Of a stretch of DNA of 64,000 nt, positions 8,311 to 11,757 are shown piece by piece. A program made the position numbers and the translations under genes. Origin of the DNA: Stanieria sp. NIES-3757 (lineage in GTDB: Bacteria; Cyanobacteriota; Cyanobacteriia; Cyanobacteriales; Xenococcaceae); contig AP017375.1 of assembly GCA_002355455.1 (NCBI GenBank), positions 4,021,640 to 4,085,639 of the forward strand, in the 5' to 3' direction. The first letter of the stretch is position 1. Each line of letters begins with the position of its first letter. Below the pieces are notes generated by a model. The model had not been told where the DNA came from, ran no database searches, and was given only the letters and a program-made list of their open reading frames with translations.

Positions 8311-11300
8311 ATGTTTCATCAAAACAACTCTGCAAAACAAGTAATATTACCTGATAACTTAGGTTATTGGAAAAAACAGCTTCAAAAAGTTCCCCCAATT
8401 TTGGATTTGACTACGGACGGAATCAGAACATCCCAAACAAGCTATCAAACTGCACAGGAAACATTAATTTTTTCTCAAAAGTTAACTGAATCTCTCCAAC
8501 AAATTAGTCAACAAGAACAAGTTAGCTTAGAAATAATCTTATTAGCATCCTTCCAAACTCTCCTTTATCGCTATACTAATCAATCCGATCTTGTTGTCAG
8601 CTTAATAACTAGATTAATTAATAATCAGACTGTTAACAAACCTCAACTATTGCCAATTAAAATTAAATTTACTGAACTATTAAGTTGGCGTAATTTATTA
8701 AAACGAGTAGAACAAAAAGTTAGTGAAGCTTATGACTATAGCGATATTAAACTTGAACAATTACAACAAATTTTAATTCAAGATGGAGAAGATAGGGAGT
8801 TCTTATCTTTAACTCAAATTTTATTTTACTACCAAGCAGTTAATGCCAATTCTGCGAAAACAGCTATTAATTCGGAGGTTTGGGAGCAACAATTACTTAA
8901 GCAAGATTTACGGTTGAATCTCATTGAACAAAATAACTGTCTTTTCTGCAATTTTGAATATGCTAAAGACTTATTTGAACCAGCCACAATTAAACGCATT
9001 GCTACCCATTATCAAAAATTAATCGAAGCAATTGTAAGAAATCCCGATGAACAGATTGACCGTCTAGCTTTTTTAATTAAACCAGAAGTAGAACAAGCTT
9101 TATTCGGTTGGAATCAAACTCAAACTAATTTAGATCGACGCTGCATTCATCAGATGTTGGCATTTCATGCCGAACGTAATCCCGATGCAGTAGCCATTGT
9201 TTGTCAAGGAAAACGATTAACTTATGCTCAGTTAAACGCCAAAGCTAATCAATTAGCTCACTATCTGCAAAGTTTGGGAGTAAAACCAGAATCCTTAGTT
9301 GGTCTTTATGCAGAGCGATCGCTTGATTTAGTGGTAGGATTATGGGGTATTCTTAAAGCTGGTGGAGCTTATGTTCCTCTAGATCGTGCTAATCCTAAAG
9401 AAAGACAGGCTTTTATTGTCAACGATTCTCAAATTTCCATCTTATTAACTCAAGAACATCTCCTCAAACAAGTTCCCGAACAAATTACTCAAGTTATTTC
9501 CTTAGACCGCGATTGGCATAAAATATCCGATTATCCAGAACACGATCCTGATAGTCAGGTTAGCCACAATAATTTAGCACAGATTGTTTATACTTCGGGT
9601 TCGACAGGAAAACCTAAAGGGGTAATGCTCACTCACCAAAATTTGAGCCATTACGCTCAAGACTTACAATTAGCTCTCCAAATCACTACTAATGATGTTT
9701 ATTTACATCGAGGTTCGATTGCTTTAGTTGTTTCCGCCAGGCAATTATTAACTCCTTTAGCTTTGGGTGCTACGGCAGTTATTACCACTGAAGAGGAAAA
9801 ACGAGAACCAATTAAACTCTTTGAACTAATTAAAAGAGAAGGAGTAACTATTGTTGATCATGTTCCCTCTTTTTGGCGACATTTTGCTCAAATTTTGACT
9901 CACTTAGCACCGGAAGTCAAAGCAAATCTTTTAGATAATCAAGTGCGTTTAGTTGGTGCAGGTGGAGAACAGGTAACGGCTGAAATTTTAAAATGCTGGC
10001 GCAAATTGTTTAAACCCCAGGTCAAATTTGTCAACATCTATGGTCAAACAGAAGGAACGGGAGTAGTTACGGTTTACTACATTCCCGATAACTTGGATCA
10101 ACGCCTCAACGCAATTCCCGTTGGTCATCCGATTCCTAATATGCAAGTTTATTTACTAGACCACAATCTGCAACCAGTACCAGTAGGAGTTCCTGCTGAG
10201 TTACATATTAGCGGTGCAGGTGTAGCGAGAGGATATTTACATCGTCCACAATTAACAACTGAAAAATTTATTCCTAATCCCTATCTTTCAGGCGAAAGAC
10301 TTTACAAAACAGGAGATTTAGCTCGTTATTTAGCTGATGGCAGCATTCAATTTTTAGGTCGGATTGACCGCCAAGTCAACCTCTACGGATTGCGGATCGA
10401 ATTAGGAGAGATTGAAGCTATTTTGTCTCAACATCCTGCCGTGCGAGAAGCGGTAGTCATGCTACATGAGAATTATCTTGGTCAGAGATTGGTTGCTTAT
10501 GTCGTTCCTAATCAAGCTCAATTTTCTCAGTCTCAAGAGTTGCGTAGCTTTTTACAAACCCAATTACCAAGCTACATGATTCCTTCAGCCTTTGGATTCT
10601 TAGAGGCTTTTCCTTTAACCACTAGTGGTAAGATTGATCGTCAAGCTTTACCTTCAATTGAATCAATCCAACAATTATCAGAGCGGACTTATCTTGCACC
10701 AAGCAATCAATTAGAACAAGAACTTACTCAAATCTTTGAGGAAATTTTAAATACCAGTCCGATTGGGATTGAAGATAATTTTGTAGAATTGGGCGGTAAC
10801 TCTTTACTAGCAGCCAATCTAATTAATCAAATTGCCCAAAAATACGGTCAAAATTTGCCCTTAGCTGCTGTTTTTCAAGCTCCAACAGTCAAACAATTAG
10901 CAACTTTACTAGACCAAGAGCAAACTATTGAATTACCCCATACAATAATTCCCATTCAAGTTGATGTTGAGCTACCTAATTTATTTGCTATTCATATCCT
11001 TGGTTATGGTTTAGAATACTATCGTCCTTTAGCTAAGTATTTCGCCTCAGAAGTCAATCTTTACGGACTATCTACCGAATTTACGAGCGGTCGCGATATT
11101 CCACACCCCAGAGATATCAACGCCTTAGCCTCCTATTATGTTCGAGAATTACTTGCCTTTCAACCCCAAGGACCTTATCTATTGGTAGGAGTTTCTTTTG
11201 GCGGTGTGGTTGCCTATGAAATCGCTCAAAAACTTCTTTCCCAAGGACATCAGGTAAATTTCTTAGGATTGTTTGATAGTTACTGCCCTCATGGTAATCG

Positions 11301-11757
11301 GATTAATAAACCATTTCAAAAACGTTTGCTCGGTCATTTAAAAAACTTGAGGCAAAAAAAACTAACCTATGTCCGAGAACGATTACAAGATTGGTACTAT
11401 CTATTGAGAGATGAAACTCAATACCGTTTCTACAAAGCGATCAAAGGTCAAGACTACTTTAGAGGTAATTTATCTCAAGGTATAGAGCTAGGAGCAAAAT
11501 ACGAACGTCTCAGAAACATGCAACTGCGAAAAGAACACGGACAAGTCAATCAAAATTATCAAATCCAACCTTATCCAGGTCAGATTACCTTGTTTCGAGC
11601 CACAGAAAACCGCGACTCTAAGTTAGAGTGGCATCAATTTGCTCAAAAAGGATTAGAGATTTTTGACATACCTGGAACTCATTTAGGCATCTTCCAAGAG
11701 CCTCAAGTGCAAGTATTAGCAAAGCAACTCAAGCTTTGTCTAGAACGAATCATTTAA
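8311..11757 (+). CDS. Single-module NRPS: partial condensation-adenylation-carrier-thioesterase
   Basis: A 1148-residue stand-alone synthetase module. Residues 1-265 resemble only the C-terminal lobe of a condensation domain (YWKKQL ... LLYRYTNQSDL) and lack the HHxxxDG active site. The adenylation domain has A3 IVYTSGSTGKPKG (about 425-437), A5 NIYGQTEG, A8 NLYGLRIELGEIE and A10 SGKIDR (about 771). The carrier-protein serine lies in LGGNSL (about 830). A C-terminal thioesterase has GVSFGG (Ser about 961), Asp in LFDSY and His in GTHLG. Aligned by eye to PheA, the pocket reads V V R D V A I G V K: the Asp235 that normally holds the amino group is Val. A non-amino-acid substrate is therefore likely. 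No tailoring genes flank it. Confidence 0.9.
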   Translation: MFHQNNSAKQVILPDNLGYWKKQLQKVPPILDLTTDGIRTSQTSYQTAQETLIFSQKLTESLQQISQQEQVSLEIILLASFQTLLYRYTNQSDLVVSLITRLINNQTVNKPQLLPIKIKFTELLSWRNLLKRVEQKVSEAYDYSDIKLEQLQQILIQDGEDREFLSLTQILFYYQAVNANSAKTAINSEVWEQQLLKQDLRLNLIEQNNCLFCNFEYAKDLFEPATIKRIATHYQKLIEAIVRNPDEQIDRLAFLIKPEVEQALFGWNQTQTNLDRRCIHQMLAFHAERNPDAVAIVCQGKRLTYAQLNAKANQLAHYLQSLGVKPESLVGLYAERSLDLVVGLWGILKAGGAYVPLDRANPKERQAFIVNDSQISILLTQEHLLKQVPEQITQVISLDRDWHKISDYPEHDPDSQVSHNNLAQIVYTSGSTGKPKGVMLTHQNLSHYAQDLQLALQITTNDVYLHRGSIALVVSARQLLTPLALGATAVITTEEEKREPIKLFELIKREGVTIVDHVPSFWRHFAQILTHLAPEVKANLLDNQVRLVGAGGEQVTAEILKCWRKLFKPQVKFVNIYGQTEGTGVVTVYYIPDNLDQRLNAIPVGHPIPNMQVYLLDHNLQPVPVGVPAELHISGAGVARGYLHRPQLTTEKFIPNPYLSGERLYKTGDLARYLADGSIQFLGRIDRQVNLYGLRIELGEIEAILSQHPAVREAVVMLHENYLGQRLVAYVVPNQAQFSQSQELRSFLQTQLPSYMIPSAFGFLEAFPLTTSGKIDRQALPSIESIQQLSERTYLAPSNQLEQELTQIFEEILNTSPIGIEDNFVELGGNSLLAANLINQIAQKYGQNLPLAAVFQAPTVKQLATLLDQEQTIELPHTIIPIQVDVELPNLFAIHILGYGLEYYRPLAKYFASEVNLYGLSTEFTSGRDIPHPRDINALASYYVRELLAFQPQGPYLLVGVSFGGVVAYEIAQKLLSQGHQVNFLGLFDSYCPHGNRINKPFQKRLLGHLKNLRQKKLTYVRERLQDWYYLLRDETQYRFYKAIKGQDYFRGNLSQGIELGAKYERLRNMQLRKEHGQVNQNYQIQPYPGQITLFRATENRDSKLEWHQFAQKGLEIFDIPGTHLGIFQEPQVQVLAKQLKLCLERII

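Follow-up and report, generated by a model that had tools for sequence, protein, structure and literature searches.

A stand-alone NRPS-like enzyme of Stanieria sp. NIES-3757 without Asp235, and the cyanobacterial subfamily to which it belongs

The gene and its domains

The window, which is the whole stretch of 64,000 nucleotides of Stanieria sp. NIES-3757 DNA that was analysed, contains a gene for a protein with a condensation C-lobe, an adenylation (A) domain, a carrier (T) domain and a thioesterase (TE). Its features are as follows (positions are within the window).

8311..11757, + strand: whole gene for the C-lobe-A-T-TE protein (P0001, 1148 amino acids, ATG start), exact bounds of the open reading frame
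8356..9075, + strand: condensation C-lobe alone, amino acids 16-255 (positions 194-447 of the 456 in the Pfam Condensation profile; the N-lobe, and hence HHxxxDG, is absent)
9166..10632, + strand: adenylation domain (AMP-binding 286-643, AMP-binding_C 700-774), from Pfam, alignment and model
9727..9729, + strand: Val473, at position 235, by gapless alignment; A domains for ordinary alpha-amino acids have Asp there
9739..9741, + strand: Arg477, at position 239, by alignment; invariant in the subfamily (45/45)
9856..9858, + strand: Asp516, at position 278, by alignment; invariant in the subfamily (45/45)
10045..10047, + strand: Gln579 in GQTE, facing LgrA Pro483 (the A5 proline) in the alignment; counterpart of StsA Met415 (PMC11253843)
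10630..10632, + strand: Lys774, at position 517, the catalytic A10 lysine, conserved, by alignment
10717..10911, + strand: carrier (T) domain (Pfam PP-binding 803-867)
10801-10803, + strand: phosphopantetheine Ser831 in GGNSLL, by motif and alignment
10978..11754, + strand: type I thioesterase (Pfam Thioesterase 890-1016)
11194-11196, 11275-11277 and 11680-11682, + strand: putative TE triad Ser962, Asp989 and His1124, assigned by motif position

A preliminary description, made from the sequence alone, had called this a lone NRPS module that begins with a condensation C-lobe lacking HHxxxDG and ends with a type I thioesterase. Our analysis agrees on each of these points. The gene stands alone, and we found no remnant of an N-lobe upstream of it, nor an N-lobe in those related copies whose N-terminus was read. 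The carrier serine, the A-domain motifs and the TE triad are invariant in all full-length copies that we aligned, and the genome encodes one PPTase-type protein (PF01648). As judged from sequence, the T serine, the triad and the PPTase-type gene are consistent with an active enzyme.

The top matches of the protein among solved structures are NRPS modules and A domains. It shares the order A, T, TE, as well as fold and motifs, with C-A-T-TE termination modules (SrfA-C, EntF, AB3404). In contrast to these, it has the C-lobe alone rather than a complete condensation domain with HHxxxDG, it lacks Asp235, and none of the neighbourhoods that we read contains a module upstream of it. The C-lobe is also the least conserved part of the protein (on average 32.9% identity to the orthologues, versus 62.9% for the A domain). 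We infer that it derives from a C-A-T-TE termination module and persists as a non-catalytic structural relic.

The same genome encodes a second stand-alone A-T-TE protein (G000:C1:5129108-5131783, L019), which has Asp235 and the code DAEDVITVVK and lies outside the subfamily described below. That genome has a chromosome of 5,319,768 bases and a second contig of 143,540 bases; a 15-kb piece of this contig matches a plasmid of Stanieria cyanosphaera with 97.8% identity over 91% of the piece.

The adenylation pocket

The preliminary description had placed Val at position 235, where the amino group of the substrate is normally bound, and had read the pocket as V V R D V A I G V K. We obtained the same code. 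The A4 segment aligns gaplessly to the A domains of LgrA and to other solved A domains, with Val473 on their Asp, so the placement of this residue is confirmed at the level of alignment (pocket positions were assigned by gapless sequence alignment). The structural model of the A domain has a pLDDT of 93.3 and a pTM of 0.92 and matches ApnA A1 and PheA. In an independently gathered set of 79 other A domains, 78 have Asp in this column, and the lone exception belongs to the same subfamily as the window protein. Lys517 is present (Lys774); it is common to A domains of every substrate class and so does not discriminate among them.

In A domains for keto and hydroxy acids, an aliphatic residue replaces Asp235 (PMC11253843, PMC4558948, PMC10949194). 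Furthermore, StsA has Met in place of the A5 proline, and mutating that proline in LgrA raises the activation of keto acids (PMC11253843). We equated the StsA and LgrA residue with the A5 proline through the LgrA numbering, in which Pro483 faces Gln579 of the window protein. Both changes of the keto-acid type, an aliphatic residue at 235 and a replaced A5 proline, are therefore present. We rejected GQTE as a marker of keto acids by itself, because 12 of the 78 ordinary Asp235 domains have the A5 proline replaced as well (by Ile).

The same two changes are shared with the keto-acid A domains of StsA (cereulide), HctE/HctF and HapC, with Met at the proline site in StsA and Gln in the window protein. 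Unlike these proteins, the window enzyme has no KR domain in a Pfam scan, it combines Arg239 with Asp278, and it stands alone with a TE; also, most of its wider subfamily has Ser or Thr at 235.

Related proteins and their surroundings

The search for orthologues that the preliminary description had suggested yielded 12 copies (one of them broken) in 10 of 27 genomes from the family of this strain, with two copies in each of two genomes. Nine other complete copies that we aligned are 47-53% identical to the window protein, and one more (in G007) is cut by a contig end. All 12 copies have Val or Ile at position 235; because this holds for the 11 besides the window gene, Val473 reflects neither chance nor a sequencing error. 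No neighbouring gene is shared consistently in the neighbourhoods compared, which suggests that the enzyme does not depend on a dedicated partner from an adjacent gene. Sequence comparison also indicates that the gene is lost by deletion in a congener (G001), where the ligA-argG interval (L196, G001:C1:4858000-4867000) retains only the tail of the gene (amino acids 1111-1148, 71% identical, with three stops). Because the gene is patchily distributed and has decayed in a congener, it must be dispensable.

The broken copy lies in a draft genome (L040:641-3868, G024) and contains internal stops, which could reflect decay or an assembly error.

A profile of the A4-A5 region revealed a wider family: 63 of the 391 genomes from this order, or about one in six, contain a member. 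We inspected 45 of its A domains, and none has Asp at position 235: 29 have Ser, 9 have Ile, 6 have Thr and 1 has Val. Arg239, Asp278, Gly330 and Lys517 are present in all 45, and at the A5 proline site 43 have Gln and the other 2 have Ser. The 41 subfamily members that were placed in a tree of 84 A domains form one group (SH-aLRT 99), and the clade of the window protein nests inside it (SH-aLRT 100); neighbouring A domains outside the group carry Asp235. (The tree was built by a quick method with the pocket columns kept in, so its inner order is unsure.) Because the window clade is nested within a group that lacks Asp235, the loss of this residue predates the window gene, and Val/Ile is a local version. 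Alignments and the tree establish the domain order of the window protein, its lack of Asp235, its invariant catalytic and pocket residues, and its membership in the subfamily, as it has a residue other than Asp at 235, Arg239, Asp278, Gly330 and a residue other than Pro at the A5 site, and falls within the monophyletic group.

The subfamily is apparently cyanobacterial and undescribed so far. One member lies beyond the Cyanobacteria, in a Pyrinomonadaceae MAG (L062); it was the true relative in a scan of contigs with the subfamily profile, which otherwise returned mostly ordinary A domains. A contig scan with the whole window protein gave pattern matches only, none of them confirmed. We also considered a Pseudanabaena module with Ser235 (PMC11356792) as a relative and rejected it, as its code, SIFHSGICM, lacks Arg239 and Asp278.

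Members of the subfamily occur in several architectures. Besides stand-alone A-T-TE proteins, there are fusions of A and T to Acyl_transf_3 (L185:3850-6624, which passes the Pfam cut-off, and L189:8545-11364 and L190:7168-9987, which fall below it), in which a membrane acyltransferase domain takes the place of the thioesterase. Others are loading A-T domains at the N-terminus of Nostocaceae-like NRPSs, terminal C-A-T-TE modules (L137, L144), and a second C-lobe-A-T-TE protein in G034 (L042). In one protein, two PilZ-type matches lie between A and T (A-PilZ-PilZ-T-TE, L179:2392-5763, adjoining polysaccharide genes), which raises the possibility that cyclic-di-GMP controls an NRPS-like enzyme.

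Some A-T-TE genes lie next to a gene for a DltB-like MBOAT (L044, L180, L181) or for an Acyl_transf_3-GAF protein (L184), and others lie inside Wzx/Wzy/sulfotransferase loci (L178, L183). WecG and pyruvyl transferase are also among the neighbours in these polysaccharide loci (L044/L180/L181, L178, L179, L183, L184). Another A-T-TE gene is followed by a gene of the FMN alpha-hydroxy-acid dehydrogenase family (L177), and still others have ordinary chromosomal surroundings (L043, L175, L186-L188). Thus, the link to polysaccharides is recurrent, not universal, across A-T-TE copies. For the window clade, in which no neighbouring gene is conserved, the link is borrowed from its sister clades.

Two of these loci have other features. 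In L137:254-14154, a large open reading frame with a PKS-like start, the subfamily C-A-T-TE module, a TauD dioxygenase gene and a carnitine O-acyltransferase gene lie in a row. In L181:11069-16296, a family of proteins of about 370 amino acids, without a Pfam match, is represented five times in tandem, as copies or fragments, beside the DltB-like MBOAT and A-T-TE genes.

Proposed function

We propose, with moderate confidence, that the window protein is a stand-alone enzyme that activates a polar acid other than an alpha-amino acid, loads it onto its own carrier, and transfers or hydrolyses it with its TE. The A domain would adenylate a polar carboxylic acid with no amino group at the alpha carbon; alpha-keto, alpha-hydroxy and dicarboxylic acids are the likeliest candidates. 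The acid would then be loaded onto the enzyme's own phosphopantetheine carrier, and the type I TE would accept the acyl group on Ser962 and either transfer it to an acceptor (an alcohol or an amine) or release it by hydrolysis. The substrate class and the transfer to an acceptor are what we infer from the pocket and from the relatives: A-T-TE proteins, acyltransferase fusions, and MBOAT and exopolysaccharide neighbours all fit acyl transfer.

The pocket gives a hint about the acid. Module A1 of surfactin synthetase, which is specific for glutamate, has the code DAKDLGVV, with Lys239 and Asp278 (PMC10548584), and the window code (VVRDVAIG) likewise has a basic residue at 239 and Asp278. The likeness is weak, as Asp235 is present in surfactin A1 and other positions differ. 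Apart from position 235, keto-acid domains keep the code for the amino acid that corresponds to their keto acid (PMC10949194), so the likeness to a glutamate module at 239 and 278 is a hint that the substrate is a dicarboxylic acid, or some other polar acid, with no alpha-amine. Read literally, this analogy would make 2-oxoglutarate the substrate, but this is a guess, and we think that it is probably wrong.

Loss of Asp235 by itself does not settle the substrate class, because McyG combines Val at this position (Val227) with bound L-Phe and was crystallised with L-Phe-AMP (PMC11253843). By analogy, the window enzyme might activate an ordinary or hydrophobic alpha-amino acid despite Val235, and the TE would release the amino acid or its ester or amide. 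The Asp235 of the neighbouring A domains in the tree also favors this. However, Val235 is accompanied by Arg239, Asp278 and the A5 Gln, all of which are fixed or nearly so in the subfamily, and in the sister clades position 235 holds Ser or Thr rather than an acidic side chain. We therefore view an alpha-amino acid as unlikely.

It is less likely still that Asp278, the pocket Asp that remains invariant, replaces Asp235 as the ammonium anchor for an amino acid whose amino group is located anywhere from the beta to the epsilon position, with the TE perhaps cyclising or transferring this amino acid. One relative, the module in L137, does lie beside TauD and carnitine-acyltransferase genes. But next to Asp278 is Arg239, which would repel a cation, and a code that was assigned to arginine, DAEDIGTVV, pairs Asp278 with Glu at 239 instead of Arg (PMC11356792).

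The preliminary description had proposed a non-alpha-amino substrate and had drawn an analogy to synthetases that dimerise aryl-pyruvates. The first part probably holds. As for the second, fungal quinone synthetases are A-T-TE enzymes that act on aromatic keto acids (PMC10316625), and the window enzyme resembles the fungal quinone and furanone synthetases in its stand-alone A-T-TE core, in the absence of elongation modules, and in the loss of Asp235. The analogy was not supported, though: invariant Arg239 and Asp278 would give a charged pocket, the protein has an extra C-lobe, its relatives lie near polysaccharide loci and membrane acyltransferases, and we saw no genes of aromatic metabolism in the neighbourhoods read. 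A dimerising synthetase for aryl-pyruvates or aryl acids is very improbable.

It is equally improbable that the gene is what is left of a larger NRPS, decaying and functionless by itself, despite the missing N-lobe, the patchy distribution, the deleted and stop-ridden remnant in the congener and the broken copy in G024, because the same truncated architecture was found wherever the N-terminus was read, the A, T and TE motifs are invariant, and the A domains of the copies are 63-70% identical while their C-lobes are 33-43% identical.

Returning to the activation and transfer of a polar non-alpha-amino acid, some of the sister clades resemble the Dlt system (the ligase DltA, the carrier DltC and the MBOAT protein DltB), as the A domain and carrier lie beside, or are fused to, a membrane acyltransferase (L044/L180/L181, L184, L185, L189). 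In contrast, proteins of the window clade carry a TE instead of an acyltransferase, and the window protein scores 284.9 bits against the DltA equivalog TIGR01734, far below the cut-off of 559.85. We tentatively suggest, as one speculative possibility, that the subfamily carries out a Dlt-like acyl decoration in cyanobacteria: a repeatedly re-fused A-T cassette would activate a non-amino acid (hydroxy, keto or dicarboxylic), and a TE, MBOAT or acyltransferase-3 protein would place it on a glycan or other acceptor, with PilZ (cyclic-di-GMP-type) domains in one lineage. The window enzyme would be a soluble, TE-based version.

In a literature search, we found no description of a cyanobacterial link between NRPS-type activation on the one hand and exopolysaccharide loci and membrane acyltransferases on the other; the subfamily makes this connection. 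It is also a sizeable group of A domains for which the usual ten-residue code predicts nothing.
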